This document shows, in pieces, positions 18,441-33,825 of a stretch of DNA of 64,000 bases; the first letter of the stretch is position 1; each line of letters starts with the position of its first letter. The stretch is taken from contig CALSRM010000003.1 of assembly GCA_943788755.1 (NCBI GenBank), positions 806,001 through 870,000 on the forward strand, in the 5' to 3' direction. Below the pieces are notes generated by a model. It ran no database searches and was not told where the DNA came from. It saw only the letters and a program-made list of their open reading frames with translations. This DNA is from an uncultured Flavobacteriales bacterium (GTDB taxonomy: Bacteria > Bacteroidota > Bacteroidia > Flavobacteriales_D > Parvicellaceae). A program made the translations under genes and the position numbers.

Positions 18441-19103
18441 TTAGCTTGGGTTTTTCAGATGTTTAATTCCAAATTCATTTTGCAATAAATTATTGATTTC
18501 GGTTGAACCCAGTTTTCTCTCTGTTTTTTCGGTTTCATTATATATTCGTAGTATATCTCCTTTGATAAAATAAAAGGAATCCTCTTTTAATATTGAAAAA
18601 CGTAAACTATTATGAAAGGGATAAATGGAGGTGTCTTTATATCGATTGGCTATATCACTTAAAATAGTTGACTCTGATTTTGTTTTTTTTGGTAGGACAA
18701 TCATTTGTTTATATAAATCCTTCTCTTTTCGGAAAATAACAAGTTCATTTTTAGTTATTTCAGTTTTGAAGCTCATGCCATAAACAGAATATTCAAGCGG
18801 CCTAAATTCAGGAATTAGTTTTACCGATGGCCAACCAGAACCAATGTCAATAAAATATTTTTTATCCTCAATGACAATAGACAACATTCTATGGCACTCT
18901 AAATTATTAACAAATGATGAGTGTAAATTTGTTTGAATGTCATACTCTTTAAGCACTTCTTTAAAGTGAAGTACTTTGTCAGAGCATGTTCCTCCCAGCC
19001 CTAAATCCTTATTTTTAACTTTATTGAGCATAAATATATTATGAAACGGAACAGTCTTAAACTCTTTTAATAAAAGGGATTCTATTTGAAGAATTAAATT
19101 CAT
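18441..19103 (-). CDS. Arylamine N-acetyltransferase-like acyltransferase
   Basis: 220 residues. It shows the Cys-His-Asp catalytic triad of the NAT family: Cys40 in GLGGTCSDK, His71 in ECHRMLSIVI, Asp86 in YFIDIGSGWP. The His-Asp distance of 15 residues equals that of typical NATs. It is shorter than usual (about 270-280), and the N-terminal helical part is reduced. Members of this fold transfer acyl groups from CoA or from carrier proteins to amines, including in amide-forming steps of natural-product pathways. It is the last gene of a nine-gene operon and overlaps the asparagine-synthetase-like gene by 4 bp. The family call is firm on motif grounds; the substrate is unknown. Confidence 0.75.
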   Translation of the reverse strand: MNLILQIESLLLKEFKTVPFHNIFMLNKVKNKDLGLGGTCSDKVLHFKEVLKEYDIQTNLHSSFVNNLECHRMLSIVIEDKKYFIDIGSGWPSVKLIPEFRPLEYSVYGMSFKTEITKNELVIFRKEKDLYKQMIVLPKKTKSESTILSDIANRYKDTSIYPFHNSLRFSILKEDSFYFIKGDILRIYNETEKTERKLGSTEINNLLQNEFGIKHLKNPS

Positions 19104-20530
19104 TTGTGGTTTATTCCTCTTTTAGTTATTGCTTTATCAAAAACTGGATATTTATGATAGTAGTCATTGTCAGCAGTGTTTTTATCAAAAAACTTACACC
19201 AAATTTCTTTAAGCGTTTCTCTTTCTGTCTTATTGTCTTTTGTTAGGTATTCAACAACTAATTTTCTTATACCTGAACCCACATCAAAAGATGTTTTTTG
19301 TCTTTCTATTATTTCTTGTGGTAGATCAGAAGTAAATAGGTTTCTTAAAATTTGTTTGTCTTTCAAGTCTTTCAATGGCAAATCTTTAGAGATAGCGTAT
19401 ACTTCTTTATCTAAAAATGGACATCTAATTTCAATAGTATTTGCCATCGATGATAAATCTAGTCTTCTTAATTCTGTGTAATGAAGATTTTTTAGTAAAA
19501 TAACACTCTTTTCTCGCGCTTCGGAAATATCATTAGATATTTTATAACCACAAAAAAACTCATCTGCTCCTTCTCCAGAAATTACAACTTTTAATTTGTC
19601 ATTTTTTGCAGATTTTGATAATAGGTAAGTCGCTAACCCATTACTTATAATTGAAGGGTTGTAACTTTCTGTATGGTAAACTACTTGTTCGATTAATTTG
19701 CCAATTTCTTCTTTATTAGGTAACGGAATATATTTTATTTGATTTTCTATTTGCAGATGGTTAATTAGAAGTTTTACAAAACCAATATCTTGATTTTCTC
19801 TATTACCTAATGTATAATAAATCGCATCTTTGGAGTGTTTCGAGAGGATTGAGGCAATGATAGAACTATCGAGACCACCACTTAGAAAAACACCAACCTT
19901 TTCATCATTTAGAGGGATTCTCTTCAATGTAGAATATATAATTGATTTTTTTAAAGAAGACTTCTTTACAAGAGGAAAGGAATGTTTTTTTAATGAAACA
20001 ACTTTCTGATTAATAATTTCCGAAAAACCTTTAGGAATAAACTCAAATAATTGAATTTTATCAAATGATTTAAGTTCGCTAGAAAGAAATTCTATTTTTT
20101 CGGTATTGCCATGAAATAATGGCTTTTTACCTATATAATCTCGTATCGTAAAAATCTTATTTGTTTCATTATTGTATATGATACCAGAGTAAAACCCATC
20201 AAGAACATTTATAATATCAGCACCAATAATTTTGTACAATGGTAGGATAATTTCAATATCAGATGTAGAATGTAGTGCTATACCATATTCTTTTGCGAGT
20301 GCAATAGAATTGAAAATTTCACCATTAAATGCTCCAACTAAATATTCAAATTCAAACGGTTGCATTCCATTTTCAGTTTTATCGTTTATTACTAAACGAT
20401 TAAAACCTAAAGAAAATAAATAAGAATTATATATTTTCGAATTATCCAGTCCTCTGTGTTTAATTCGAGATAAAGCATCTAAACAGTCTGATTCTTTATG
20501 ATTACCGATAATTGCAACTATGCCACACAT
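19100..20530 (-). CDS. Asparagine synthetase-like amidotransferase
   Basis: 476 residues, a class II glutamine amidotransferase fused to an ATP-pyrophosphatase. Cys2 (MCGIVAIIG) is the glutaminase nucleophile. RIKHRGLDN, NRLVIND and GAFNGEIFN are the conserved N-terminal blocks. FLSGGLDSSIIASIL at about 212-226 is the PP-loop, and VISGEGADEFFCGY is the second ATP-binding block. It is shorter than housekeeping AsnB (about 550), mainly at the C-terminus. Such homologues often act in secondary metabolism or glycan amidation, activating a carboxylate as acyl-AMP and forming an amide. It abuts the M20-like gene (no gap) and overlaps the NAT-like gene, so all three are likely one functional module. 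Confidence 0.88.
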   Translation of the reverse strand: MCGIVAIIGNHKESDCLDALSRIKHRGLDNSKIYNSYLFSLGFNRLVINDKTENGMQPFEFEYLVGAFNGEIFNSIALAKEYGIALHSTSDIEIILPLYKIIGADIINVLDGFYSGIIYNNETNKIFTIRDYIGKKPLFHGNTEKIEFLSSELKSFDKIQLFEFIPKGFSEIINQKVVSLKKHSFPLVKKSSLKKSIIYSTLKRIPLNDEKVGVFLSGGLDSSIIASILSKHSKDAIYYTLGNRENQDIGFVKLLINHLQIENQIKYIPLPNKEEIGKLIEQVVYHTESYNPSIISNGLATYLLSKSAKNDKLKVVISGEGADEFFCGYKISNDISEAREKSVILLKNLHYTELRRLDLSSMANTIEIRCPFLDKEVYAISKDLPLKDLKDKQILRNLFTSDLPQEIIERQKTSFDVGSGIRKLVVEYLTKDNKTERETLKEIWCKFFDKNTADNDYYHKYPVFDKAITKRGINHK

Positions 20531-21331
20531 TTATATTTCAGTTTTATTTATCCATTTTATGAATTTTTTAAAAATATCATTATGCTTTACTAAATTTACA
20601 ACACTCAAACTTTCGTTAGCTCGATGAATATTACTTGAGCTGTCATTAGGTCCAAACCCTACGTAATAAGCATTTTTTGGGATATTAGTTAGGAAAGGAC
20701 ATTTAGTGAATTTACTTAAGGATCTGTTAGCGTAAATTGCTTTACCTTCATAAATAGAATTATTCATTTCATCAATGAAATCGGGCTTACTTGTTGTTTC
20801 AGGTAAATGAAATATCACTGGAACATTATTTTGATAAACACCTGTTTCTTCCACATATATCTTTGAATTAAATTCTTTAATGTGTTTTGGGATTACTTCA
20901 AATGGCGTTTTTCCAGCAACCTCTTCTTCTCCTTGTATAATCCATAAGATATTTGGTAACTCTTCGTTATTGTTTTGTAATTCAATCAGTGAGAATATAC
21001 GACTTATTAAGATACCTTTATTATCAGCTATTCCTCTTGCATAATATCGCCCATTTTTTTCAATGAGTTCAAAAGGGTCTGTGTCCCATTTATCTGCTTT
21101 ATGTATTTTTTCTACATCATAATGAGCGTATAATGTTACTTTTTTAGTAGAATTTTGATTAGTATATTTTGCTATTATTACAGGTTGATTGTATGAACTA
21201 TTTCCTTCAATAGAGATACTAAATCCTATCGATTTTAATAAATCGATTACTAATTCAATTCCTTGAATATTAGATGATTCATCATTGGCAATTGTTTTAA
21301 TTGCAATGATTTTTTTTAGTGCATTAATCAT
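20531..21331 (-). CDS. M20-family metallohydrolase-like protein, reduced
   Basis: 266 residues. Zinc ligands of the M20 family are in place: His70 and Asp72 in YAHYDVE, Asp103 in GIADNKG, Glu135-Glu136 in IIQGEEE, an acidic pair at 161-162, and His236 in NIHRANES. It is much shorter than the usual 350-450 residues because the dimerisation ('lid') domain is missing. It should be an amidohydrolase, deacylase or peptidase acting on a small amide. In this operon, beside amide-forming enzymes, it may trim or deprotect an intermediate. Overlaps its upstream neighbour by 8 bp. Confidence 0.8.
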   Translation of the reverse strand: MINALKKIIAIKTIANDESSNIQGIELVIDLLKSIGFSISIEGNSSYNQPVIIAKYTNQNSTKKVTLYAHYDVEKIHKADKWDTDPFELIEKNGRYYARGIADNKGILISRIFSLIELQNNNEELPNILWIIQGEEEVAGKTPFEVIPKHIKEFNSKIYVEETGVYQNNVPVIFHLPETTSKPDFIDEMNNSIYEGKAIYANRSLSKFTKCPFLTNIPKNAYYVGFGPNDSSSNIHRANESLSVVNLVKHNDIFKKFIKWINKTEI

Positions 21332-21938
21332 TCTTGTTTATTTCAATTATTAATCTTAATTCATTTTTCCACCCTTCAGGTAAATAAAAACCTAAGGGTG
21401 TAATAAGTCCATTGTCTAACCTTCTTACATCTTGTGCATATACTTCATTTCTTGTATATTTTTTAAAAAAATCAAGGATTTCGTTTGCGGAATCAAAATC
21501 TATAGCCTCTTCCTTACCATAATCATCAAAAGGAATTGAGTGTATCCAAGTAGCGTTATTCTTTGAAACTCGATACATTTCTTCTACAGCTTTTTGCGGA
21601 AATAATGAATGGTCAAGCGAGTGGTGTGTGTAAACTATAGTAAAGGTATTATCAGAAAAAGGCAGATTATGCATGTCTGCCTCAGTAATGAAATCAGCTC
21701 TAGGGTAGATGTCAATAGCTTGAATATTTGTATAGCCTAATTGTTTAAAAGCTTCAACTTCAATGCCATATCTAGATCCAATACATAGTATTTTTGCTTT
21801 CGTTTTTTCCTGTATATTTACTTTTGATATTATGTCAATATGTTTTGAAAATAGCTTCAATTCGTATAATCGACCTACTTCTTTCCATTGCTTTTTTTTA
21901 TAGTCTTCATAACTATTTATAGGGATTAGTTGTTTCAT
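21324..21938 (-). CDS. Class I SAM-dependent methyltransferase
   Basis: 204 residues with the Rossmann methyltransferase pattern: motif I as ILCIGSRYGIEVEAF (about 51-65), an acidic residue after beta2 in IQAIDIYP, then ADMHNLPFSDNTFTIVYTHHSLDH (in parts: LPFSDNTF and HHSLDH), and RVSKNNATW. This is the Methyltransf_11 type. The motif I glycines are fewer than usual (GSRYG). Target atom unknown. Overlaps both neighbours (8 bp and 4 bp), so it is translationally coupled within the operon. Confidence 0.8.
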   Translation of the reverse strand: MKQLIPINSYEDYKKKQWKEVGRLYELKLFSKHIDIISKVNIQEKTKAKILCIGSRYGIEVEAFKQLGYTNIQAIDIYPRADFITEADMHNLPFSDNTFTIVYTHHSLDHSLFPQKAVEEMYRVSKNNATWIHSIPFDDYGKEEAIDFDSANEILDFFKKYTRNEVYAQDVRRLDNGLITPLGFYLPEGWKNELRLIIEINKND

Positions 21939-22642
21939 ATTTCTGGTATTATTACGATTATTGTATGCTTAGGTAATTCGATATTATTTAAGACCTTGTC
22001 TATTGATTCGATAGTAGATTCTACTATTTTTTCATCTTTCCAAGATACCTTATATGCAAAGATTACTCTGGTTTTAGGGGAATAATAAACAGTAATAAGT
22101 TTCTTAATGAGGTACCAATCTCTATAAGACTGATATAAAACTAAATTTGGTTTTGATGAGAATGTTTTTGCTAATTCTTTGTTATCAAATTGGTTTATAT
22201 CGCGAAGCCTTTCAATACTTGTAACAAAAACATTTTGACTATTTGTAAAAGAAGTAAGATCTATTTTTGAAATCGCACAAATTGCATTTAATGCACTTAT
22301 GCCTGGTATGACTTCGTATTTATAATTTGACTGTTCAAAATGGGTTACATATTCACTTAATGTAAATTGTTCTAAATACTGTCCAGAATAAAAAGAGGAA
22401 TCTCCTGGCATCAATAATGCAATGCCTTTATTGCTTGAATATGCAGTTTCAATAATAGATAGAACTTTTTGATTGTTTATTTTTCCTGTAAACAATTTTT
22501 TGTTTTTAAATAAGGACTTGAAATCTTCCCCTATCATTTCACCAATATAAATTCCTATCTCAGCTGCTTCAATAACTTTAAGAGCCTTCAACGTTAGGTA
22601 ACCAGTATCTCCACCTGGACCAATTCCTATTATATAGATCAT
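21935..22642 (-). CDS. Tetrapyrrole-methylase-fold SAM methyltransferase (CobM/CbiF-like)
   Basis: 235 residues. GIGPGGDTGYLTLKALKVIEAA at the N-terminus (GIGPG, then LTLKAL) is the SAM-binding opening of the tetrapyrrole methylase superfamily. LMPGDSSFYSGQ and YEVIPGISALNA are its next two conserved blocks. FAYKVSWKDEKIVESTI near the C-terminus closely follows the precorrin-4 C11-methyltransferase pattern ('YKASWPDEK'). No cobalamin gene is nearby, so it probably methylates a different substrate in this pathway. The same fold was recruited for peptide-backbone N-methylation in borosins, but resemblance here is to CobM/CbiF. Confidence 0.82.
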   Translation of the reverse strand: MIYIIGIGPGGDTGYLTLKALKVIEAAEIGIYIGEMIGEDFKSLFKNKKLFTGKINNQKVLSIIETAYSSNKGIALLMPGDSSFYSGQYLEQFTLSEYVTHFEQSNYKYEVIPGISALNAICAISKIDLTSFTNSQNVFVTSIERLRDINQFDNKELAKTFSSKPNLVLYQSYRDWYLIKKLITVYYSPKTRVIFAYKVSWKDEKIVESTIESIDKVLNNIELPKHTIIVIIPEI

Positions 22643-23619
22643 ATATCCAACGCTCTTATTTCATAAATATCCCCAAGTCTTTCAAATGTATATTCTGTAA
22701 GCAATTCCCCTTTATTATTCAATAGATAAATAGAGGGGGTGTTAGAATATCTTTTGTCATTTTCAAAACAAATATCACTACCGCCCACAAAAACAAAAGT
22801 AGGAGTAACCAACAAGCCTCTCAGTAATTTTTCGGCCTCGTAAATAACCTTATTATTTTTTACTAATTTTTTATTGTTGCTATCACAATAGATTTGTTCA
22901 TCCATATTATTAATATAAATATTATGAGCTGAATGCGCATTAAGAGAAACTACATCGTGTTTTTCTGTTTCTAAATCATAGACTATTAAGTCACTCATTT
23001 TTCCAGTTCTCATTGTAAAATTATGAGCAATAGAATACAATTTGTTCTTATTAGCAAATATTGAGTTCAGATGACTATGAGAGTTCAACTTTAGCTCTAT
23101 TGATTTACAATTTTCTATTCTTAATGGTTTATTTGATTTATGAATTTCACAAAAGGGTATGCTTAATATTTGGTTATAACCAGTGTGTGGAAATGTCAAA
23201 TTACCTTTTATGCTATCTATCTGGTGTAATTCACTAGGTATACCAAATAACGCTATTTTTAAATCGACAAGTTCTCCATTACTAATTTTAGAATAGTATA
23301 TTTCTGATATTCTTTCATTTATTGGGAATTCTCTATTTCCATTAGTGCCAAGTCGCGCAAAATACCAATATTCCTTATGTTTAGTGATTCCGTAAAATTT
23401 ACCTTTTAATAGTTGTTTATGAATATTGTTAACTGTGTCTAAAACAAAAATTCCTTTTGACGTAGAAAAAATGATTGAAAAGTTAAGTTGTTTTCCTTTC
23501 ATTTTAAAGTTTAAATCCCTTTCAGAGTATAGAATTTCTTTGTAATTAGCAATCTGTTGATTACTTTTCTTCCTCTGGCGATTCGAAACTTCGATTGTAT
23601 GTTTAAAAACGGTGTTCAT
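22639..23619 (-). CDS. Beta-propeller-like protein (DUF4915/TIGR03032-like)
   Basis: 326 residues without signal peptide or membrane helix. It contains repeated short beta-strand units with residues such as HSHLNSIFANKNKLYSIAHN, NAHSAHNIYINNM and LLRGLLVTPTFVFVGGSDI. These recall the TIGR03032/DUF4915 family found with glycan- and metabolite-modifying genes. It may be a sugar- or substrate-binding propeller, but no catalytic motif is evident. It overlaps the CobM-like gene by 4 bp and is 2 bp from the deacetylase gene. The family call is from memory of sequence style and moderate. Confidence 0.5.
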   Translation of the reverse strand: MNTVFKHTIEVSNRQRKKSNQQIANYKEILYSERDLNFKMKGKQLNFSIIFSTSKGIFVLDTVNNIHKQLLKGKFYGITKHKEYWYFARLGTNGNREFPINERISEIYYSKISNGELVDLKIALFGIPSELHQIDSIKGNLTFPHTGYNQILSIPFCEIHKSNKPLRIENCKSIELKLNSHSHLNSIFANKNKLYSIAHNFTMRTGKMSDLIVYDLETEKHDVVSLNAHSAHNIYINNMDEQIYCDSNNKKLVKNNKVIYEAEKLLRGLLVTPTFVFVGGSDICFENDKRYSNTPSIYLLNNKGELLTEYTFERLGDIYEIRALDI

Positions 23620-23621
23620 TA

Positions 23622-24422
23622 TTAATAAATCATGTTTTCTGTAATGAATTTACGTTCTAGTTCAAAATTTCCATAATCTGTAAGTTTTTTTGACTTTATA
23701 GCGCACGCATATTTTATGTTTTTATTCTTCAAAATTTCAACTATATTAGAGTTGTATTGTCCATCTGTATAAGCATAAGATTCTATTTCAATACCAATCT
23801 CAAATAAAGCTTGTTTTGTTTGTTGGATATCTTGACAGATGCCCTCAGTGCTAAGTTTTGTATATAAGTCATGATACATTGAATGCCCACCAATTTCGTG
23901 ACCTAAACTACTTAAGTCTTGTAATTGATTTATGGACATATAAGAAACGTTATTTCTTAAATTATTACTATTTAGAAGAGTTTTTATAAATTCTTCTTGT
24001 TGAGTGATAGAATAACGTAAAAAAATAATTTTTTGTTTTCCTGTAATCCAATCATCTTTTTTATCTAACGTTATGTTCTCATTTACATAGTGGTAATAAT
24101 AATCTAATGGTGCAATTTTACGTTCTTTACAGTAACCTATTACAGGATAAAAAGTTGCTTTGATGTTATACTTCTCTAAAATAGGTTTGGCATACAAATA
24201 ATTATCAGTATAGCCATCATCAAAAGTTAGCGCAACTTGACTTGTGTTTGGTGCATCATCAAGGTTTGATATAGTTTTAAAAGAGTAATCATTTCTTAGG
24301 TATTCGAGTATTAACTTTTCTAGTCTTTCTTGCGAAATTAACGTACCTCTAATAAAATAAGCATCATTGAAGTCTATTTTAGATTTAGGTAATACTCTAT
24401 GAAACATTAATATCTCAATCAT
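23622..24422 (-). CDS. Polysaccharide deacetylase (NodB homology) family protein
   Basis: 266 residues. Motif 1 VALTFDDGYTDN supplies the catalytic base and metal Asp. Motif 2 GGHSMYHDL supplies the two metal-binding His. SYAYTDGQYN is in the position of motif 3, with Arg replaced (usual form RxPY/PxG). There is no signal peptide, so it is cytoplasmic, unlike peptidoglycan deacetylases; it probably removes an N-acetyl group from a small glycosylated or amide intermediate. It overlaps the LOG-like gene by 8 bp. A glycosyltransferase-like gene starts the operon, which fits a GlcNAc-transfer-then-deacetylation step. That pathway order is inference. Confidence 0.8.
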   Translation of the reverse strand: MIEILMFHRVLPKSKIDFNDAYFIRGTLISQERLEKLILEYLRNDYSFKTISNLDDAPNTSQVALTFDDGYTDNYLYAKPILEKYNIKATFYPVIGYCKERKIAPLDYYYHYVNENITLDKKDDWITGKQKIIFLRYSITQQEEFIKTLLNSNNLRNNVSYMSINQLQDLSSLGHEIGGHSMYHDLYTKLSTEGICQDIQQTKQALFEIGIEIESYAYTDGQYNSNIVEILKNKNIKYACAIKSKKLTDYGNFELERKFITENMIY

Positions 24423-24912
24423 TAAATATCAATTTAGAAAGTTCTTCTAATGATTTAAAACCAATAAGTAATCCGTCTTTTCTATTATCTAAATTTTGAT
24501 TGGCAAGTTTTTTACTCCACCCTTCTGTTCCTGTATAGCAAAATACTTTTTTCCCAAATTGCCAAGCATAACTAATTTCATTTAAAGTACCTGCTCCTCC
24601 ACCTAAAGCAATTAAAATATCTGATGACGAAACAATTACGGAGTTTCGAGCAAAACCAATTCCAGTTGGGATTATAACATCTAAGTACTTATTTGCCTTC
24701 TCTTTATTATCAAATGGAAGAATACCAACAGTTTTACTGAGTATATTTTTGCTGTCCTTAACACCTCTTGAAACGGCTTCCATAGTTCCTTGCATTCCAC
24801 CATTTACAATTGTGATCCCTTTCTTACCCAGCAGTAAACCAAGGTTATATGCAAACTCATACAACTCATTAGAACATTGACTTTTATTTGAACCTATGAT
24901 ACCAATTTGCAT
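24415..24912 (-). CDS. LOG/TIGR00725-like nucleotide-binding protein
   Basis: 165 residues of Rossmann type with IGIIGSNKS, GGMQGTMEAVSRG and ALGGGAGTLNEISYAW, the GGGxGTxxE motif of the LOG (cytokinin riboside phosphoribohydrolase)/DprA-related superfamily. The block VIIPTGIGFARNSVIV is characteristic of the TIGR00725 subgroup. LOG enzymes cleave nucleoside 5'-monophosphates to free base and ribose phosphate, so a nucleotide may be a substrate or by-product in this pathway. That link is inference. Overlaps the glycosyltransferase-like gene by 19 bp. Confidence 0.78.
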   Translation of the reverse strand: MQIGIIGSNKSQCSNELYEFAYNLGLLLGKKGITIVNGGMQGTMEAVSRGVKDSKNILSKTVGILPFDNKEKANKYLDVIIPTGIGFARNSVIVSSSDILIALGGGAGTLNEISYAWQFGKKVFCYTGTEGWSKKLANQNLDNRKDGLLIGFKSLEELSKLIFND

Positions 24913-26153
24913 AACTGTAATTTTAAATTTTCTTGTTTTAGTGAAAACTTTTTAAACTCACTGATAAAGTGACTTCTATCAAAAGAATTGATTTGAATGT
25001 CTAATTCTATTAATCTATCTATTTCGTTTTTAAATTCATTCTTGTTCATGTTTTCATATAATAATTCTAAGATGTTTTTAATGTGTTTCTGATAAAAAAG
25101 TAAACGGTTTGTAAATTCAGTTTCTCCTTTGTATAAATATGAAACAAGTAAAGCACCAATCATATCTGAAAAATATTTTTCAGAACTATTTTCAATTGAG
25201 GAATAGTTAAAAGTCCTGTTGTGTACAAGACTAAAAAAGGAAACATCTCTTATTTGAAATCCTACTTCGGTTAATAAATGAGAATGTATCATGTCGCTTC
25301 TTCTGGCTGGTATGTTATTACTTTCTGAAAATCCCAAATGAGGTATATGAAAAATTTCAGGATTGAAAACAATAAAATTCCCACCTCTTAAAAGTTTTGA
25401 TCTTGTGAATTCTGGAACACTACTTATATTGTTATTGAAAGAAATTTTAGTAATTGGTTTTCCAATAAGTATATTTTTCACAATAGAAATTCTGTTATCA
25501 GTATTTGATAGAAAAATAGAATAGTTCTTGTCAGAATTATTCTGATTGTAATAATCGTGAAATTCGGACTGTACTTTAGTTTTTTTAGGCATGTACTCTC
25601 CTTTAAAAAAAACATTTAATTGACTTTCGCAATAGAGTAGCGACGGTATCGGTGGCGCATAAGTTGAAGGTGAAATAATTGCATCAATATTTTCATTCTG
25701 GTGATACAAATTTACAATTTCAGAAAAATAATTAGTTGAATAATTGACAGTATGTTTATTGTTTCTTAATTCACTTCTGCCAAAAAGCATATCATCATCT
25801 ACTTGCCAGATAATGGAATCTTTAAACGTTTCAAAGTTCTCAATAATAAAAAATTGTTGTTGTATTCTTGCTCTTTGTATGCTGTCAATTCTTGTAGAAC
25901 AATTTGCTTTACTAAAAAAATTAGAATACTTTTTTTCTAATTCTTGGATTTCAAAAAGGTTAATTACTTCAATGTTTAATGGTAAACGTTCTAATTTGCT
26001 CTCTATATTTTGTTTGAATGTCTTATCAAATATTACAATCGATAATATGTAGTTTTTGTTATTGTCAAAAGAATATGATTTTATGATACTTTCAATTATG
26101 TTATTCGTATTTTTTTCATTTTTTGTTGAAAATATGATATTTATTTTTGTCAT
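24894..26153 (-). CDS. Glycosyltransferase-like protein (GT-A type), first gene of the operon
   Basis: 419 residues starting with a beta-strand (KINIIFSTKNE) and holding WQVDDDML at about 117-124, a DxD-like metal/UDP-sugar motif in the right context (interrogated 'D-D-D' after a hydrophobic strand). IDAIISPSTYAPP and LRGGNFIVFNPEIF further down fit an acceptor-binding half. The C-terminal 100 residues are Asn/Lys/Glu-rich and helical. No membrane segment. It is the promoter-proximal gene, 110 bp after the reverse-transcriptase remnant; the spacer holds a hairpin repeat. I would call it a sugar transferase with moderate confidence. Confidence 0.55.
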   Translation of the reverse strand: MTKINIIFSTKNEKNTNNIIESIIKSYSFDNNKNYILSIVIFDKTFKQNIESKLERLPLNIEVINLFEIQELEKKYSNFFSKANCSTRIDSIQRARIQQQFFIIENFETFKDSIIWQVDDDMLFGRSELRNNKHTVNYSTNYFSEIVNLYHQNENIDAIISPSTYAPPIPSLLYCESQLNVFFKGEYMPKKTKVQSEFHDYYNQNNSDKNYSIFLSNTDNRISIVKNILIGKPITKISFNNNISSVPEFTRSKLLRGGNFIVFNPEIFHIPHLGFSESNNIPARRSDMIHSHLLTEVGFQIRDVSFFSLVHNRTFNYSSIENSSEKYFSDMIGALLVSYLYKGETEFTNRLLFYQKHIKNILELLYENMNKNEFKNEIDRLIELDIQINSFDRSHFISEFKKFSLKQENLKLQLCKLVS

Positions 26154-26181: not shown

Positions 26182-26243
26182 AATTGCTCTTTTGGTTTTT
26201 TCCGTTTTTGCTTTGAATTTTGGCAAAAACCAAATGTGCAATT
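26182..26243. repeat. Long imperfect hairpin repeat on the right flank of the biosynthetic operon
   Basis: AATTGCTCTTTTGGTTTTT (26182-26200) pairs with AAAAACCAAATGTGCAATT (26225-26243) at 16 of 19 positions, with a 24-nt loop containing TTTTGGC. GTGCGGTTGGC follows. It lies between the operon start and the stop of the RT remnant and shares CAAATGTG with the repeat at 18369-18437. Together they bracket the nine-gene operon. Confidence 0.65.
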
Positions 26244-26261: not shown

Positions 26262-26930
26262 TTAATGAAACTCAACGTTTGCTTTTCTTCTTAGGCTTTT
26301 TTTGAGTACAAATTTAGCCATTCCGTCACTAAAGTAAAGATAATTAAACCACCAACCTGATAAGCCTGTTTTATTCTTAAAAATCATTTTTTTACGAATA
26401 TTAAACGATTGGTAATGTTTCATTATCCCTAAATAGGAATTTAAACTGCTCAACAGGGCTTCTTGTTCCGTTTTTGTGGGTTTTTGGTTTTGTACTATTT
26501 GGTTTTGCTTACTAATGGCAGTAAAAAAATTACCTCTGGTACGGTTGGCGATGTATATTCGGTTTGGTAAAGTTACAGCTCCAATAAATTTAACGCCTTT
26601 TTTATAATGTTGTAAATGCATTTTCTTTGGATGCAGGGTAAGTTGTAAATTTGAACGCAAGAAGTTTGAAAGTTGATGAATTAGACTTTTCAAATATTCT
26701 TTGTTTGTGTGTACAATTACAAAATCATCTACATACCTGCCGTAATATTTTAGGTTTAATTCTGATTTTACATAATGGTATAAAGTATTCATATAAAAAT
26801 TAGCAAATAGTTGACTTGTTAAATTACCAATGGGTAAACCACAATTTAGCGGACTATGAAACAAGCTTTTGTTGTTGGGTAAACCGTTCCAATTACTACG
26901 CATACCTTTAATGATGCAGTTTAGGTTTTT
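26262..26930 (-). pseudogene. 5'-truncated reverse transcriptase, DGR type
   Basis: The C-terminal about 220 residues of a reverse transcriptase. GLPIGNLTSQ carries the (I/V/L)GxxxSQ motif typical of diversity-generating retroelement RTs (group II introns and retrons differ here). YGRYVDDFVIV at about 54-64 (from the ATG at 26903) is the catalytic YxDD box. LHPKKMHLQHYKKGVKFIGAV is the following thumb-proximal block. The frame is open seven to nine codons upstream of the ATG (reading NLNCIIKG), which also fits DGR RTs, and then stops where the flavin oxidase gene ends. The whole finger domain is missing, so it cannot be active. No template repeat or Avd-like gene is adjacent. Confidence 0.8.
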
Positions 26931-28045
26931 TTATGTTCAGTATTAAGTAAAATCTCATCAACAGCTTTTTTAGCTGATCGAGCAGCGGTGTGAACTGACA
27001 CCCAACTTTCACCATCTGTATATTCACCACCGGCAAAATACACTTTGTTTTTTATGGATTCGCTTAATGTCCGTACCTCTTTCCAATCCGCGTGATCTGT
27101 AAGATAACCACCTCTTATGAACGGTTCCTTATTCCAATTCTGACTGATGTGCTTTTTGTAATTACTGGTTGCATGATTTGAAAATAGGTTGTCGAGTTCT
27201 TCTAAAACGACATCCCTTAGTTGACTTTTAGATAGGGAGTTATATTTGTCGACACTATTCCCTACGGAAAACAATCCTATGATGTTCTTATCGCTATCCT
27301 GTCCGAATGATGCATCGTAAAAAATCTTTTGTTGGGTCTTTGAATTCTCGATAATTTTTTCAAATCCTGAATCATAGAAGCTGTTTGAGAATTCAAAGAA
27401 AGCTTTGAATCCATCCCAAATAAGTGCATTTTTAATGACGCTTTGCTTGTCTTTGGATAAACCTGGGGTAAACTCAATGTCACCAGCTTGAAGAATCTTT
27501 AATGGAACACTCACAATTACCTTGTCAGCAAGTTTCAGTCCTTGGCTAGTTGAAACACTAATCTTTTCTTCCGAATAATTGATGGAGTGAACAATCGAAT
27601 TGAATACTATTTTGTCCAAAATGCTAGGAACAATGTATTTTTCATAGAAATTGAACCAAGATGAATTGACAAACTTGTAGTCGGGTGAGTCCTTTATAGT
27701 TTTGATATCCAATTGAACTGAGTCATCATTCAAAATTTCTGAAAATATTTCACCCTTTGTTTCTATCCATTCCGCCCCCAATGGTATTGGGAACTCTGCA
27801 AAATCCGTGTTGATTTTCATTCTTCCACCGAAATCTGAAGAAGCTTCAAGGATTTCAAAATCAATTCCCAATTGGTCAAGTAGGTAGCCAGCTGATAGCC
27901 CACCAGCTCCAGCCCCAATAATTATTACCTTTCCTTCGAACTTACTACTTATATGATTTATTAGACTACTTGTAACACAAGAAGTGTGAAAAGGGACAAT
28001 AATTCCCAATAAGCCACAAATTTTTATAAACTCTTTTCTAGTCAT
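26921..28045 (-). CDS. FAD-dependent amine oxidase-like protein (cassette 5)
   Basis: 374 residues of the flavin monoamine oxidase family. VIIIGAGAGGLSAGYLL at about 40-56 is the dinucleotide-binding motif. FEILEASSDFGGRM has the Glu contacting ribose and the family GGR. YFAGGEYTDGESWVSVHTAARSAK is the C-terminal FAD block (in parts: FAGGEYTDG and SVHTAARSA). The N-terminus MTRKEFIKICGLLGI resembles a Tat signal (with RK for RR) and is followed by a possible lipobox (FHTSC, Cys23), so the enzyme may be exported as a folded flavoprotein. It is short for the family (about 450). Its stop lies inside the open frame of the truncated RT. It begins just after a GTTATAT core-like site at 28058-28064. 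Confidence 0.85.
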   Translation of the reverse strand: MTRKEFIKICGLLGIIVPFHTSCVTSSLINHISSKFEGKVIIIGAGAGGLSAGYLLDQLGIDFEILEASSDFGGRMKINTDFAEFPIPLGAEWIETKGEIFSEILNDDSVQLDIKTIKDSPDYKFVNSSWFNFYEKYIVPSILDKIVFNSIVHSINYSEEKISVSTSQGLKLADKVIVSVPLKILQAGDIEFTPGLSKDKQSVIKNALIWDGFKAFFEFSNSFYDSGFEKIIENSKTQQKIFYDASFGQDSDKNIIGLFSVGNSVDKYNSLSKSQLRDVVLEELDNLFSNHATSNYKKHISQNWNKEPFIRGGYLTDHADWKEVRTLSESIKNKVYFAGGEYTDGESWVSVHTAARSAKKAVDEILLNTEHKKT

Positions 28046-28057
28046 GGTGGTCGTTGT

Positions 28058-28109
28058 ATATAACGATGCGGCTAAAATACGTTTTAATGCGGTTTAGGTT
28101 TTGTTAGCA
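28058..28109 (-). repeat. attC-like element E (end of cassette 4, start of cassette 5)
   Basis: Read on the minus strand it opens with TGCTAAC (28103-28109), has short inner arms TTTAG/CTAAA reversed around a 16-nt loop, and closes with CGTTATAT (core at 28058-28064). TGCTAAC is the reverse complement of the start of cassette 4 (GTTGGCA) at 6 of 7 positions. It overlaps the last codons of the GAF gene. This is the weakest of the five elements. Confidence 0.5.
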
Positions 28110-29308
28110 ACTTTTATATTGACAGTGCTAAAATTCAACCTTATTTTTTCATCTATAATGTCAACCGTAATAGTGGGGTGTTCAGTAACAATTAGATTAT
28201 TTAAATCATTTATTACCGTTTCCCTTGAGCTTTGGGTCAGATCTTTTGCGGAGAAAATCAACTCGATAAATCCTTCGTGCTCTTTCGTATCAAGACTAAT
28301 TCCATTTTTTGACTCTGATTTTCCAAGTTCTGAGGAAATTATCAATAGACAATTCGTGATTATGGCAATAGCTAGATTCCCCTTTGTATATATCTTAGGG
28401 TCTGATTCGAAATCAGGTAGAGGAAAACCACCTATTAATTTTGTTGCATTTCGAGAAAGGTCTTGAGCTGAAATAACTATTTCAGACAGGTTAGTAGATT
28501 CGATATTCATTACTATCTGTTCCAGAGCATCTACGCAATCTATACTATCGTTTACTGCGAATTCTGTCTCCTGGAGAAGATCTTCATTCAATTGGTTTGC
28601 TTTTATAGCAGCTTCAAGTGAAAGTCCTATTGCTTCAGAATATTTTAATTCATTTGAAATCAAATAGTTAGCATGATTTAGAAAAGTCCGAATGGTGGTT
28701 TCTGCTGAATAGCTTGATTTTGTGATATCTTGAATTGACTTTAATGAGTTGGATAATTCGGAAAGTGCTGGCTTTAAGGCAGATTCAGTAAGATCTAGTC
28801 TTGTCTGCCTACGATTTTTTGTGATTACTTCAAGTCGCTTATTTACGAGCTTCGCTAGGTTGTTCAGACTAGTATGTTCTTCTTTTGAAAAGCCTCTTTT
28901 TTTAGTATCAAGGACACAAAGGGAACCCATCACATTTTCTTTAACCATTATTGGAACCCCTAAATACGATTGAATGTTGTACTCCTTAACAAAGTGCTGC
29001 GGTATCCTTGGATCATCAGACGCATCGTTAACTTCAAAAGTTTCTCCATCTCGAACCACGAATTGACAAAATGAGACGTCACGATGTGTCCCTCTTGCAG
29101 AAGCAAGAACCGGAGGTAGCCCTATGTGGGCCTTGAAAAATTGTACTTGGTCCAAGACAAGACTAACCAGGGCAATAGGGCTATCAAGCTCTGCTGCGGC
29201 CTTTTTGACAATTTCTTGAAGCTCGGAATCATTAGTTTCTGCTAATAATTCCTTGGTGAAGAGGTCAAACCTTTCATTTGAATCTCCTAAAACATCAATT
29301 CTATCCAT
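28094..29308 (-). CDS. GAF-domain sensor protein (cassette 4)
   Basis: 404 residues, no signal peptide, cytoplasmic. A GAF domain occupies about 20-160: IALVSLVLDQVQFFKAHIGLP, SFCQFVVRDGETFEVNDASDDPR and YLGVPIMVKENVMGSLCVLD are typical of bacterial light, redox or small-molecule-binding GAFs. The C-terminal 230 residues are mainly helical, with LALSNSLKS-like repeats, and may be a dimerisation or degenerate HisKA-type module. The end (FIELIFSAKDL, TVDIIDEKIRLNFSTVNI) is beta-rich, reminiscent of an HATPase-like fold, but I see no His box or N/G boxes. It stands alone between two attC-like elements, so it is a one-gene cassette. Confidence 0.75.
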   Translation of the reverse strand: MDRIDVLGDSNERFDLFTKELLAETNDSELQEIVKKAAAELDSPIALVSLVLDQVQFFKAHIGLPPVLASARGTHRDVSFCQFVVRDGETFEVNDASDDPRIPQHFVKEYNIQSYLGVPIMVKENVMGSLCVLDTKKRGFSKEEHTSLNNLAKLVNKRLEVITKNRRQTRLDLTESALKPALSELSNSLKSIQDITKSSYSAETTIRTFLNHANYLISNELKYSEAIGLSLEAAIKANQLNEDLLQETEFAVNDSIDCVDALEQIVMNIESTNLSEIVISAQDLSRNATKLIGGFPLPDFESDPKIYTKGNLAIAIITNCLLIISSELGKSESKNGISLDTKEHEGFIELIFSAKDLTQSSRETVINDLNNLIVTEHPTITVDIIDEKIRLNFSTVNIKVANKT

Positions 29309-29327
29309 TTTTCATTTTTTTTATTGC

Positions 29328-29381
29328 TGCCAACGTTTAGTATAAAGCGGTCGTTTTAATGCCGCTTATACATTGTTGTAA
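29328..29381 (-). repeat. attC-like element D (end of cassette 3, start of cassette 4)
   Basis: On the minus strand: TTACAAC (29375-29381), inner arms GTATAAGCGG / CCGCTTTATAC with one unpaired A, then ACGTTGGCA (core GTTGGCA at 29328-29334). TTACAAC is the exact reverse complement of GTTGTAA, the first seven bases of cassette 3 (30504-30510); identity extends to 8 nt. The extra-helical base in one arm is a known feature of attC sites. Confidence 0.75.
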
Positions 29382-29385
29382 GTAG

Positions 29386-30450
29386 TTATCTTTTAATTAA
29401 CTTGTAGGTTGTATGATTGTTATTGTTTAGAATGGTCAAATAGTATATTCCTGATTTTGTTTCTGGTGTTTTTATACTTCCTGAACATTTTCCTTCAGTA
29501 ATATTTCGACCTAAAAAGTCATAAATGATGAAGTATTCATCACCAAGTAGATTCTCAACAAAAATTTCATCTGAAAATGGATTCGGGTAAATTTTATACC
29601 CTTTTTCGAAAAGGGTCTCTTCAATACTTGTCATAGAAGTACAGGAACTAACATCAATTTCGCTGTATAAATTTGAGTCTTGGTTTGGGTCTTCGACCGT
29701 GTTAGCCATCATTGAAATTTTAACAATTTCATCACTTGTAGAAAAACAAAGTTGGTGAAAGTTGTCGTTGTCATTTATATCTGCTATCGAAATAGGAACA
29801 TGCGGAATTAGAACTCCTGAACTATCAGAATAACCAATATAGTATTGAAACAAGTCAGATTCTGTATCACCACTTATATAAGGTGTAATGCCTCCATCCC
29901 AGGCAACTTGAATCGTTTGTATTCCTGAATTACATTCATTCAGATTGCCATCAATTCTTTGGGCAAAGAATAAACTTGGTCCATCAGCAAGCGGAATAAC
30001 ATTCGTGGTTGTGATTCCGTTAAGATTTATGATTGCTGAACAAGCGGACTCTCCGGATAAAGTGTCAGTTGTAAATAAATCCCCTACAACTCTAACTTCA
30101 ACAGGTGGATTGGTAACAGCGGTACCAAATTCACCTAACAGAAGCACAGTTCGATTTTCTCCGTTTTCATTAGCTGGAGCTAAAACAGCACACATTGGGA
30201 TGTGTATATTTCCAAGGCTATCTACAACTTCAAAATCAGATTCTGACAAGGTGGATACATCTATTGGAAACATAAAATTCACAGGCATTCCATCTAACTG
30301 GCTTCCTGGTGTACCACACAATAAACTTGGTAGTCCATTATCCAGTCCAAAAAAAGCCGATACAAGAGTATCTTGTGATTTGGCATTTAAAACAAAAGTT
30401 AAAATTGTTATTGCTGAAAATAAGATTTTTCTTCCCATACTTTTTTTCAT
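29386..30450 (-). CDS. Secreted protein with T9SS sorting domain (cassette 3)
   Basis: 354 residues. The signal peptide (KILFSAITILTFVLNAKSQ) is preceded by a short basic start. The middle (about 30-270) is beta-rich without a family I recognise; it contains SDFEVVDSLGNIHIPMCAVL and an Asp/Asn-rich segment IADINDNDNFHQLCF. Four Cys could form disulfides. The C-terminal 75 residues are a type A T9SS sorting domain: YKIYPNPFSDEIFVENL, YDFLGRNI, SGIYYLTILNNNNHTTYKLIKR. It is a one-gene cassette between attC-like elements C and D, and so was probably acquired. Confidence 0.8.
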   Translation of the reverse strand: MKKSMGRKILFSAITILTFVLNAKSQDTLVSAFFGLDNGLPSLLCGTPGSQLDGMPVNFMFPIDVSTLSESDFEVVDSLGNIHIPMCAVLAPANENGENRTVLLLGEFGTAVTNPPVEVRVVGDLFTTDTLSGESACSAIINLNGITTTNVIPLADGPSLFFAQRIDGNLNECNSGIQTIQVAWDGGITPYISGDTESDLFQYYIGYSDSSGVLIPHVPISIADINDNDNFHQLCFSTSDEIVKISMMANTVEDPNQDSNLYSEIDVSSCTSMTSIEETLFEKGYKIYPNPFSDEIFVENLLGDEYFIIYDFLGRNITEGKCSGSIKTPETKSGIYYLTILNNNNHTTYKLIKR

Positions 30451-30503
30451 CTATTAATCTATTTTTAAGATTAGACTCTTTTTATCAGGTTTGGTTTAAT
30501 TGC

Positions 30504-30576
30504 TTACAACGTTTGGCTAAGGTAAGTAAATTGGTTTGGTAGGTTAGGTTATTTTCCTTAGCAGCTGTTACCCAAC
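30504..30576 (-). repeat. attC-like element C (end of cassette 2, start of cassette 3)
   Basis: On the minus strand: GGGTAAC (30567-30573; with flanks GTTGGGTAAC), inner arms GCTAAGG / CCTTAGC (perfect 7 bp, 30556-30562 and 30516-30522), then ACGTTGTAA (core GTTGTAA at 30504-30510). The opening decamer is the exact reverse complement of the start of cassette 2 at 32568-32577. Confidence 0.8.
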
Positions 30577-30621: not shown

Positions 30622-31989
30622 TTAAAAAGCTCTAATTGCCCTCAATGCACCTCCAGTAAAATTTTTACCTGTACCATTTTGAGCTCCGGTAGATAGAATT
30701 ACGGTATATGCACTTGAAATATTTAACTCTGAAGAAGACCAGTATCTAACAGACAAAAAACCAACATAGCCAGGAAAACTGAGGTTATTATAGATTTCCT
30801 TTAGTTCATCAAAACTTGGCAAATACCAATCAAAATATCCATTTAAAACCAAATCGTCACAATTTTTAGCTGCTGTGTTACTGGCACCGCTTGTGTTTAT
30901 AATTGTAGTTGTATTTGCTCGACCAGAGCCTATTGTTTGATCAGAAGCACCTGTAAGTATTGTGGTGCTACCCCAAACCCCACCTGTAGAAATGTCATTC
31001 GGACTTACCACTAAACCTGTTGCAGAAGCTGAATCTATATAAAATATGTATCCTCCTTGAAATACTTTTCCGTAAAACTCAGCTACATTGTGATTCGCTA
31101 AAATAGTTGAAATAGGTACTTCATTATCCAGGTTTTGTTGCAAAGATACGCTGCTATTGTATGCTGGTAAGCCAGTAATGGAATTAATTACAGAATCTAA
31201 ATATAATGTTGTTACAAAGCCCATATTGGAAATATCTGTTGAATCTAGTTGGGTGTCTGTATTGTCTAAGTAGGGCGATAAATCAATTGTAGTAGCTGTA
31301 CCGTTACTAGTAATGGTTAAGTTGTTGCCAGCTAATTGTAAATCTTGTATTTCGTTAGTTACTGAACCATCTACTTCTGTTGTAATTCCACCCGCAACAT
31401 AGCCTAAGTTAGCAATGTCTGTTGAATCTAGTTGGGTGTCTGTATTGTCTAAGTAGGGCGATAAATCAATTGTGGTAGCTGTACCGTTACTGGTAATGGT
31501 TAAGTTGTTACCAGCTAATTGTAAATCTTGTATTTCGTTAGTTACAGAACCATCTACTTCTGTGAACGAAACACCACCAATAATGCTATCTGCGGTATTA
31601 GCATGTAAAGCATAAGGCACACTCATTAGCTGACTTGTCCCAGTTATGGTATAAATAGTACCTCCTGTTGGGTCGGTTTCTGTTTTAATAAAGTAAGGTC
31701 CGTTACTCCAATCTATAGTATTAAACATACCTGAAACTAATGTTCCAGAACCTATTTCTATACTGACCAATCCATTAATGTTGGTGTTTGGTGTTTGTGT
31801 TTCTACATAAACTGCTGTACCGCTTGCACTACCTTGTAATATACTTATCTGCATACCTACACCTGTAGTAGTTACTAAGGCATTTCCTGCATCTCTTACT
31901 ACTGCTTGGTAGCTCAGTTTTTCTGGTACCTGAGCAAAGGCACTAGCTGTTAGTGTTACTGCTGTAAGTAAGGTGTATAGTTTTTTCAT
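30622..31989 (-). CDS. Surface protein with tail-fibre-like repeats and C-type-lectin-like (DUF1566-type) C-terminus (cassette 2)
   Basis: 455 residues. Signal peptide (ends ASAFAQ); an N-terminal beta domain beginning PEKLSYQAVVRDAGNALV, widespread in Bacteroidota fibre-like proteins; two near-identical repeats of about 48 residues (TEVDGSVTNEIQDLQLAG ... DNTDTQLDSTDI); and a C-terminal domain (about 310-455) with YFDWYLPSFDELKEIYNNL, YWSSSE and final ALRAIRAF. That end is the DUF1566/Lcl C-type-lectin-like fold, a frequent scaffold of DGR variable proteins. Here the last 50 codons are AT-rich and show no NNC-codon bias, so no sign of adenine mutagenesis. It has no T9SS domain of its own, but the gene in front of it does. 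Same architecture as the protein at 54331-55797. Confidence 0.8.
   Translation of the reverse strand: MKKLYTLLTAVTLTASAFAQVPEKLSYQAVVRDAGNALVTTTGVGMQISILQGSASGTAVYVETQTPNTNINGLVSIEIGSGTLVSGMFNTIDWSNGPYFIKTETDPTGGTIYTITGTSQLMSVPYALHANTADSIIGGVSFTEVDGSVTNEIQDLQLAGNNLTITSNGTATTIDLSPYLDNTDTQLDSTDIANLGYVAGGITTEVDGSVTNEIQDLQLAGNNLTITSNGTATTIDLSPYLDNTDTQLDSTDISNMGFVTTLYLDSVINSITGLPAYNSSVSLQQNLDNEVPISTILANHNVAEFYGKVFQGGYIFYIDSASATGLVVSPNDISTGGVWGSTTILTGASDQTIGSGRANTTTIINTSGASNTAAKNCDDLVLNGYFDWYLPSFDELKEIYNNLSFPGYVGFLSVRYWSSSELNISSAYTVILSTGAQNGTGKNFTGGALRAIRAF
31235..31563 (-). repeat. Two 146-bp direct repeats inside the fibre-like gene
   Basis: 31235-31380 and 31418-31563 have the same length and differ at only four positions by my alignment, with a 37-bp spacer. 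They encode the two TEVDGSVTNEIQ...DSTDI units. Such recent tandem copies allow length change by slippage or recombination. Confidence 0.9.
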
Positions 31990-32040: not shown

Positions 32041-32511
32041 TTACTGCTTTATTACTTTAAATGTTTTTACGCTTTGGTTGTTTCTTGTAATATTTAAAAA
32101 GAAAATTCCTTTTGATAATGCTTCCATATTTATAGTAGTATTACTTGTCATTATTCTTTTGTTTTCAATTACCTTTCCTTGTAGGTCTATTAGTTGAAAA
32201 TTTAAATTTTCTAAGGCTTCACTTTCTACTTTTAACTGCAAGTTGTTAGCTGTAGGATTAGGGTAAACACTCAATTCTAAACTAATCGTTGTTTCGTTTA
32301 CGCCTGTGGTTACAGAAATTTCGTAGGGCTGTTGCACTCCTTGTGCAACTGAGCCATTGCTTCCTGTATTTGTAGTATAGAATGCTTGTCCAACAGTGTA
32401 GCTCGATGAGCCTCCTGCTCCTGTAGCATCACCACCTGCGGCTGGTACTGTTTCTTGGGCGCTTAGTCCAAACGTACAAATCAGTGCAACTAAAATTGTT
32501 AAAGTTCTCAT
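32041..32511 (-). CDS. Small secreted protein with T9SS sorting domain (cassette 2)
   Basis: 156 residues. Signal peptide (ends FGLSAQ), then about 50 residues rich in Gly, Ser and Thr (AAGGDATGAGGSSSYTVGQ), then a type A sorting domain from about 78: LSVYPNPTANNLQLKV, LIDLQGKVIENKRI, KGIFFLNITRNNQSVKTFKVIKQ. It has almost no cargo of its own. It precedes the lectin-like gene by 51 bp in the same direction. The same arrangement is found at 53841-55797, where the homologous small protein again precedes a lectin-like protein. A role as anchor or export partner of the fibre protein is my inference. Confidence 0.8.
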   Translation of the reverse strand: MRTLTILVALICTFGLSAQETVPAAGGDATGAGGSSSYTVGQAFYTTNTGSNGSVAQGVQQPYEISVTTGVNETTISLELSVYPNPTANNLQLKVESEALENLNFQLIDLQGKVIENKRIMTSNTTINMEALSKGIFFLNITRNNQSVKTFKVIKQ

Positions 32512-32567: not shown

Positions 32568-32703
32568 GTTGGGTAACGGTAAATTGTATGAGTAGTGGCA
32601 GATTGCGTGGTAGTTTCCTGTCAAACCGCTATGCAGTTTGAGCGGGCTACAAACCTTGATATTTTCCACATTACCTGCCATTACTTATACAAAATGTTGT
32701 GCG
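32568..32703 (-). repeat. attC-like element B (end of cassette 1, start of cassette 2)
   Basis: On the minus strand: CGCACAAC (32696-32703), long inner arms GTATAAGTAATGGCAG / CTGCCACTACTCATAC (14 of 16 paired; 32675-32690 and 32586-32601), an about 70-nt loop with its own CCGCT/AGCGG hairpin, then CCGTTACCC (core GTTACCC at 32571-32577). CGCACAAC is the exact reverse complement of the start of cassette 1. At about 135 nt it is of the size of long attC sites such as Vibrio VCRs. It overlaps the 3' end of the SGNH-like gene. Confidence 0.8.
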
Positions 32704-33531
32704 TTCGTGCTTTTTTATTTTTTCTCCAATAAATTCTAAAACTTGTTTAGCCCCATAGCAATTCAAATGGGTTAAATCATGCATTACCTGTTTCTCCGAA
32801 TTCAGATACAATGAATCCAATTTAATACAATTTGCTTCAATACGAATTTTCTCAAAAAATACATCTGTTTGATTTTTTATAGGAGAATTGTTTTCTATCC
32901 CGTTTAATAATTTGTGATAAGGAAAATCAATTAAATAAATTTTACATCTTTTGCTTTTCAACTGCTTGATACCTTCGATGTATAAATTTTGTTTATCGTT
33001 CAAATATGACGGAACTGTTTTGTAAATGTTTTCAAAAAGTTCAATTGGCTCTCCTATAGTGATACTATCAGCATAATCATACATTGTTGTATTTGATAAA
33101 AATAGTCTTGTGGGTCTTTTATTCTTTCTTAATATTTGAAAAATTTCACTCCAAGAGTAATTATTGTTTAAAAGGGATTTTAGAGCATATAGTGAAATAC
33201 CACTTCTGTTTCTATCCATTTCTTTTCTTCTTAATTGAACAGGTTTAGAAATTGCTATTAAAACTTCCGAATTTTCAGGCACTTTTTCTACAAAGACAAG
33301 AAAATCATAAACACCTGCTCCATGTCTGGCAGTTGTGTGTATTTCTTTACCTGTTTTATTTTTTAATTCTTTTAAATCAATTCCTTGATATGTTTGAGAA
33401 TCTCCCCAAATAAACAAAGAATCTTCTGCTTTGGGGGAGTTGAAGAATAAATCAACAGAAATATATAATACTAAATATATTAATGGTATCAATATTAAAA
33501 AAAGTAATGTTTTATATATAAATCTAAGCAT
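32671..33531 (-). CDS. SGNH/AlgJ-like protein paired with an MBOAT acyltransferase (cassette 1)
   Basis: 286 residues with an N-terminal membrane anchor (YKTLLFLILIPLIYLVLYISV). The SGNH pattern is seen as FIWGDSQT (catalytic Ser block, about 40-47) and HDLTHLNCYGAKQVL (catalytic Asp/His block near the C-terminus). Proteins of this type are encoded beside MBOAT O-acyltransferases and finish acyl transfer to extracellular glycans (AlgI/AlgJ/AlgX logic). It starts 3 bp after the MBOAT gene. Its 3' end runs into attC-like element B. Confidence 0.7.
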   Translation of the reverse strand: MLRFIYKTLLFLILIPLIYLVLYISVDLFFNSPKAEDSLFIWGDSQTYQGIDLKELKNKTGKEIHTTARHGAGVYDFLVFVEKVPENSEVLIAISKPVQLRRKEMDRNRSGISLYALKSLLNNNYSWSEIFQILRKNKRPTRLFLSNTTMYDYADSITIGEPIELFENIYKTVPSYLNDKQNLYIEGIKQLKSKRCKIYLIDFPYHKLLNGIENNSPIKNQTDVFFEKIRIEANCIKLDSLYLNSEKQVMHDLTHLNCYGAKQVLEFIGEKIKKHERTTFCISNGR

Positions 33532-33534
33532 AGT

Positions 33535-33825
33535 TTAAAATTGAAAATAAATGAATTGTTGTTCTTTCCCACCAAACCAAAAAATTGCAATGATAATAGC
33601 ATAATACATTGCATATCTAAAAGGACGTTTCCATTTTAGACCTATAACGGAAATTGCGTATTGACCTTCTCTTCCAAACCATTCAACTAAGACAAAAATC
33701 ATAATTAATAAAATTGTATTCCTTGGTCGGATTTCTGGTATTGTAAAAAGTGAACTGGAAAATATTTCAGTGATGTAATTAACTGCATGTCCAATATTTT
33801 CAGCCCTGAAAAAATATCCAAGCAA
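33535..33825 (-). CDS. C-terminal part of the MBOAT acyltransferase, shifted frame
   Basis: 96 codons: FFRAENIGHAVNYITEIFSSS followed by two membrane helices. 'FxWxFFRAxN' is a conserved MBOAT joint, and its first half (FAWIFF) lies at the end of the neighbouring frame. The two frames overlap at an A6 run (33809-33814; T6 on the coding strand). With five T the protein reads through as FAWIFFRAEN. So this is the missing end of the gene at 33800-34972 rather than a separate protein. Confidence 0.8.
   Translation of the reverse strand: MLGYFFRAENIGHAVNYITEIFSSSLFTIPEIRPRNTILLIMIFVLVEWFGREGQYAISVIGLKWKRPFRYAMYYAIIIAIFWFGGKEQQFIYFQF

Follow-up and report, generated by a model that had tools for sequence, protein, structure and literature searches.

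Remains of an inactivated DGR in a predicted integron cassette array of a Flavobacteriales bacterium

Introduction

The described systems closest to the locus reported here are Avd-type DGRs, such as those of Bordetella phage BPP-1 (mtd-avd-TR-brt) and Bacteroides phage F4, and chromosomal integrons. DGR reverse transcriptase (RT) genes truncated by insertion or mutation were recorded in the DiGReF survey, where they were read as inactivation; the same paper speculates that DGRs 'might even co-opt' the integron system, with no attC sites shown (PMC3521204). Group II introns have also been associated with integrons (PMC7923331). No description of a DGR as an integron cassette was found in the literature searched (most subscription journals lie outside it), and eleven papers in that literature name both DGR and integron, including one in which attC serves as a species marker. 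DGRs as integron cassettes appear to be undescribed, and this novelty is provisional.

Here we analysed a DGR remnant in a 64,000-nucleotide stretch of DNA (the window) from an uncultured Flavobacteriales bacterium. The element resembles the Avd-type DGRs of BPP-1 and F4 in its (I)GNLTSQ and YxDD motifs and, through its relatives, in the target-Avd-TR-RT order, a bAvd Pfam match and adenine-specific differences between template repeat (TR) and variable region (VR). It differs from them in having no Avd, TR or N-terminal half of the RT, and in being bacterial, with a T9SS-secreted Lcl_C-type target, an extra T9SS-tail gene ahead of it and an integron array. Unlike the truncated RTs of the DiGReF survey (PMC3521204), the cut in the window sits in an attC, and integron cassettes fill the missing part. 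The array shares with chromosomal integrons an integrase, an attI-like site, attC sites and cassette starts after G^TT that are complementary to R''; in contrast to them, the cassette series begins on the 3' side of the integrase gene, the integrase has no IntI-specific insertion, and a DGR target pair or a whole DGR is found among the cassettes. The likeness to PMC7923331 lies in a retroelement associated with attC arrays; the elements there are introns, whereas the retroelement of the present locus is cargo between attC sites.

The reverse transcriptase half and its relatives

The feature under study is the following.

26265 to 26930, minus strand: C-terminal half of a DGR RT (motif 4 GLPIGNLTSQ, YVDD and thumb), delimited by RVT_1 and the alignment to the RT of locus L007

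It comprises an ORF at 26262-26903 whose frame stays open to 26930 (222 codons, 0 stops; GLPIGNLTSQ and YVDD present). The Pfam RVT_1 match (E=2e-12) spans only the second half of the profile, positions 107-202 of 205. The closest comparison was provided by an intact DGR with a 67% identical RT in Flavobacteriales MAG DT_38 (JABSPQ010000183.1; L007), which is arranged as follows.

493 to 981: small T9SS-tail gene
1010 to 2017: target with VR
2074 to 2418: bAvd (Pfam PF22296, E=1e-21)
between bAvd and RT: TR
2749 to 3990: RT

The 413-aa RT of L007 aligns with the RT half from residue 197 (approximately residues 197-402 of ~413) at 67-68% identity with E=1e-91, a similarity that, judged from the alignment, is far beyond chance. 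Residues 1-196, which include motifs 1-3 as well as the first catalytic Asp (its motif being placed from the L007 sequence), are missing from the window RT, so that the remnant, far from a catalytically competent full-length RT of a DGR, would be unable to polymerise because the motif of the first catalytic Asp is lost. The initial annotation had recognised a DGR-type RT without its first half from IGNLTSQ and YVDD, and both points held. The phylogeny that it had proposed as a check nests the fragment among Flavobacteriales DGR RTs and sets it apart from this order's group II intron RTs, and the group II intron profile TIGR04416 gave 56.7 bits against a cut-off of 300, with no support for a group II intron or retron RT. 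By motif and tree placement, the RT half is a member of the DGR clade ((I/V/L)GxxxSQ motif 4 and YxDD). A viral origin was rejected, with 0 relatives in IMG/VR and phage DGR RTs at most 43% identical.

When 399 genomes of the order were scanned, 30 gave RT matches, which range from full-length relatives of this RT to weak hits that include group II introns. Intact members of the family are ordered as small T9SS-tail (Por) gene, target with VR, Avd, TR and RT. In ten of the loci examined, TR/VR pairs mismatch almost solely at TR adenines (for example 35/35 in L047, 27/27 in L050 and 25/26 in L045), suggesting that the relatives are working DGRs. RTs of this type are absent from three genomes of the same genus. 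A further DGR RT relic of ~30 codons lies within a contig of genome G245 (L127:1435-1524).

Searches of the organism's own genome (a 3.17-Mb, 97%-complete assembly) returned no second RT, either with the RVT_1 profile or at E<=1, and zero matches at E<=1 to the L007 Avd, a query that recovers Avd in 13 related loci by tblastn. Neither the N-terminal half of the RT (residues 1-196) nor a TR of either DGR type, nor a TR remnant, was found genome-wide, in agreement with the earlier remark that no TR or Avd is adjacent. Eight close intact RTs share 81 residues without exception, and the RT half departs from them at 6 of these, compared with 0-11% for the intact RTs in a leave-one-out control; thus the decay looks recent, and the frame without a stop points to an early stage of it.

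Directly past the RT half, at 26182-26243, lies a 22-nt inverted repeat (86%), possibly a terminator; this palindrome was tried as an attC and rejected, since its end is not GTT and the attC model gives no match. Beyond it, a tightly packed nine-gene operon on the minus strand (18441-26153; 28.5% GC versus ~35% around) holds genes that by eye are asparagine-synthase-like, M20 peptidase-like, methyltransferase-like, tetrapyrrole-methylase-like, deacetylase-like and N-acetyltransferase-like, and it looks like a small-molecule pathway.

Candidate target of the RT half

Three target-related features and one from elsewhere in the window are listed below.

30622 to ~30750, minus strand: putative frozen VR, approximately the last 130 nt of the target, from YWSSS
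30622 to 31989, minus strand: DGR-type target gene with Lcl_C-like C-terminal domain, named by homology to DGR targets with verified VRs
32041 to 32511, minus strand: small T9SS-tail (Por_Secre_tail) gene, which precedes the target in intact relatives
54331 to 55797: orphan target of the other DGR type, VR at ~55620-55797

The target at 30622-31989 lies 3.7 kb upstream of the RT half on the same strand and belongs to a family that fits such an RT (tblastn map), and the window holds the T9SS-tail gene, target and RT half in the order of intact DGRs on one strand. Its arrangement and family make it the likely partner of the RT half. An adenine test of this target against related TRs, its own TR being gone, gave a best p=0.018, uncorrected.

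The initial annotation had instead tied the remnant to the variable gene at 54-56 kb, at a distance of 28 kb (27.4 kb as measured). The last 177 nt of that gene mismatch the TR of L050 (genome G273) at 31/59 TR adenines and 14/118 other bases (p=1e-8), and by this bias they are a genuine DGR-type VR. The L050-type RT is only 46% identical to that of L007, and no TR matching the gene was found in its own genome. Because its VR matches the TR of this other DGR type, the gene at 54-56 kb is a further orphan target rather than the partner of the remnant, and the link between the two did not stand. Two further loci of the same genome (L052:4251-4598 and L053:3140-4378) hold genes related to this target with similar ends, one of them broken. 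Several VR-bearing targets whose differences from the TR of the intact G287 DGR are biased towards adenines, and which otherwise match it, occur in sister genomes at G002:C5:164975 and 186339 and at G003:C4:85345, 86790 and 236691, and an RT of the G287 DGR kind was not found in the G002 and G003 genomes; the sequence at G002:C5:186339 was considered as a TR and rejected, being another VR and not A-rich.

The surrounding integron cassette array

Where intact relatives have Avd, TR and the N-terminal half of the RT, the window has three unrelated genes (T9SS-tail protein, GAF and amine oxidase) with attC sites between them. The parts of the array, all on the minus strand, are listed below.

26914 to 26933: amine-oxidase/RT junction, left arm of the amine-oxidase attC AAACCTAAACTGCAT fused to RT codons AACTGCATCATTAAAGG, with shared word AACTGCAT
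26921 to 28045: flavin amine oxidase gene (cassette)
28057 to 28110: attC of the GAF cassette, junction G^TT at 28064
28094 to 29308: GAF-domain protein gene (cassette)
29327 to 29382: attC of the T9SS-tail-protein cassette, junction G^TT at 29334
29386 to 30450: secreted T9SS-tail protein gene (cassette)
30503 to 30574: attC closing the Por+target cassette, R'' GTTGGGTAAC, junction G^TT at 30510
32570 to 32703: long attC-like hairpin of the first cassette, R'' CGCACAAC, next junction G^TT at 32577
32671 to 34972: first cassette, MBOAT O-acyltransferase-like (frameshift near the 3' end) and SGNH-like genes, named from sequence
34973 to 35041: attI-like site, junction G^TT at 35036
35107 to 36276: XerC/D-like 'integron' tyrosine integrase with two frameshifts

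Intergenic gaps in the window resemble elements that recur across the genus, and 16 such sites share the R''-L''-loop-L'-R' plan of an attC, with 85% of cells paired and 9 pairs changed on both sides, compared with 1-4 in slid controls. A covariance model trained on these 16 sites places three of its ~6 genome-wide matches in the window (30503-30574, 29327-29382 and 28057-28110), exactly between the intruding genes, although three training sites came from the window and these matches are thus partly by construction. The model also picks sister-array sites outside the training set (49.7, 48.8 and 40.9 bits).

A rule independent of the model is that the first bases of a cassette after G^TT pair with R'' of its own attC. 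This pairing was observed at 8/8 positions for the first cassette, counted from the attI-like site, at 10/10 for Por+target (GTTACCCAAC / GTTGGGTAAC), at 8 consecutive bases for the T9SS-tail cassette and at 7/10 (9/10 counting wobble) for the GAF cassette; the amine-oxidase cassette pairs poorly with its own degenerate R''. Judged by this rule, the Por+target pair is an integron cassette in itself.

Copies of the attI-like block that adjoins the integrase, located elsewhere in the genus, are conserved up to ACGTT and unrelated beyond. This block, together with ~60 bp of the integrase 3' end (35034-35170; L082-L089), is repeated across genomes of the genus without the remaining integrase, as if attI units had spread in the genus.

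The integrase gene is intact in sister genome G003 (393 aa; L078:10881-12062), to which its two parts are 98-100% identical. The G003 protein scores 237 bits with NF040815 ('tyrosine recombinase/integron integrase'), above the cut-off of 220, and 228.7 bits with TIGR02249 (IntI), below the cut-off of 265, with the match split in two and the middle stretch of IntI missing; it is not of the IntI type that carries the IntI-specific insertion. Both the G003 and the window integrase have an N-terminal extension of ~115 aa, and array finders that require IntI may miss arrays with an integrase of this type. In G003, the first cassettes of the same integron (L078:12302-13937) code for an HTH protein together with a C5 DNA-methyltransferase-like protein and may form a defence module. 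The frameshifted stretches of the window at 33532-33799 (MBOAT-like) and 35574-35662 (integrase) may be true decay or long-read indel errors. With its tyrosine integrase, attI-like site and cassettes, the locus is, on sequence grounds, an integron cassette array, its mobility being predicted.

Truncated and intact DGRs in other genomes

Sister species G002 carries a DGR remnant of its own (L111/L130; G002:C10, 4024-6012), which keeps the T9SS-tail gene, a target with VR and the first ~30 residues of Avd. An internal deletion extends from about Avd residue 30 to the last RT codons, so its break lies elsewhere than in the window, and the loss of the Avd C-terminal part, TR and RT in G002 is independent of the window case. 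Its VR is changed at 25/57 TR adenines and 9/89 other bases (p=4e-6).

Within a verified array, the G002 remnant forms a cassette in reverse orientation, with its start at G^TTATAACC next to the RT end. The attC of this cassette lies above the T9SS-tail gene, and its R'' is GGTTATAAC, giving 10/10 pairing with one further base. The next two G002 cassettes also fit the rule (GTTCTCTAC / GTAGAGAAC and GTTGTGTGT / ACACACAAC). For the ends of the G002 DGR alone, a run of at least 9 arose in 31 of 2000 shuffles, so that the strength lies in consecutive cassettes jointly fitting the rule.

A common terminus at the RT end, GTTATAAC(C/A)AA...GAAAAT(T/C)ACCAACTGTG, is found in four genomes from two families (G002, G385, G190 and G341), with unrelated sequence outside it. 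An attC whose R'' is GGTTATAAC (23 bits with the model) lies above the T9SS-tail gene of the intact G287 DGR, and the sole attC of the 3.8-Mb G291 genome, a strong one, lies ~90 bp upstream of an intact DGR. Three intact or candidate cases were rejected as proven cassettes: in G287 the attC is on the Por side, and the contig stops before the RT-side end, making the next cassette unprovable; in G291 no closing attC with a matching R'' was found; and in G385 an attC-like hairpin abuts the RT end but its R'' mismatches the start of the preceding cassette. No attC lies near L048, L116 and other DGRs of the family, and integron carriage of DGRs is thus not general. On balance, we lean towards the view that Flavobacteriales DGRs travel as integron cassettes, both whole (reverse-oriented, with ends GTTATAACC ... 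GGTTATAAC) and as lone targets, which would be captured, shuffled and lost through attC recombination.

Discussion

The RT is broken within the half-attC of the amine-oxidase cassette, of which the left arm survives, and the break coincides with an 8-nt word common to both sides. The last letters of the amine-oxidase ORF are ...AAAAAAACCTAAACTGCAT, the attC left arm, and the RT resumes with ...AACTGCATCATTAAAGG, where intact relatives read the codons NCIIKG. Three sister species have amine-oxidase homologues with 81-82% identity, and in two of these species a degenerate attC-like sequence stands at the 3' end.

We consider it probable (roughly 0.72) that the feature represents the remains of a dead Avd-type DGR in a chromosomal integron cassette array, with target and RT half derived from one DGR and the target persisting as an ordinary cassette-borne surface-protein gene with a frozen VR. 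Under this reading, target and RT half would be parts of one former DGR that mutated its own surface-protein gene. The integron integrase may then have inserted cassettes at the attC behind the target, and a later microhomology deletion at AACTGCAT, from the attC of the last cassette to about RT codon 197, would have taken Avd, TR and the N-terminal half of the RT in a single step; cassette entry first and deletion second is the simplest reading of the order of events. The target would be left frozen after this loss, because mutagenic retrohoming is impossible once the TR and the first catalytic Asp are gone. The remnant is real and dead, and it lies in an integron array, so the frame of the initial annotation, in which the DGR died when the cassette array changed and its target froze, is largely right in outline, the break falling in the array and inside the attC of a cassette; its partner gene is wrong.

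It is conceivable that the RT half and the Por+target pair belonged to separate DGRs of one family, the target cassette having been acquired alone through the integron and the RT half being the rest of the other element. Having an attC of its own, the complete Por+target cassette could move alone, and sister genomes hold several lone VR-bearing targets and no RT. However, strand, order and family are all as in intact DGRs, and the RT half has no second Por, Avd or target beside it; we regard this origin as unlikely, though it deserves more weight than any other alternative.

A dispersed DGR, put forward as one option in the initial annotation, is very unlikely; in that case the 30.6-kb or 54-kb gene would still be diversified by an RT and TR active at another place in the genome. 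Remote targets are known for DGRs, and 2-3% of the genome is unseen, but the search for a complete RT and template repeat in the assembly came back empty on both, as it did for Avd, and the three genomes of the same genus have no such RT either. A plain deletion or insertion, with the hairpins as terminators or other repeats and no integron, is strongly disfavoured: the attC sites are short and degenerate and single-sequence folding gives modest z-scores, yet covariation, recurrence across the genus, GTT boundaries and the start/R'' rule in two genomes all stand against it. Finally, an assembly chimera at the amine-oxidase/RT junction, which the apparent assembly indels (integrase and MBOAT frameshifts) might suggest, as long-read metagenome assemblies often contain indels, is highly improbable given the large contig (1.95 Mb), a common stretch of ~8-10 nt that is too short to mislead an assembler, and the RT-free truncated DGRs in a sister species.

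The interest of this locus lies in its integron link. Integrons rearrange entire genes, and DGRs alter individual sites within a single gene; if the reading proposed here is true, a DGR remnant and target carried as cassettes would link two of the best-known variation-making systems of bacteria. The intact DGRs with attC ends and the intact integrase in a sister species offer objects for a test. Cassette carriage would then give DGRs a concrete means of passing between families and offer a route by which targets are parted from their mutator and frozen, and it would combine targeted hypermutation with cassette shuffling.
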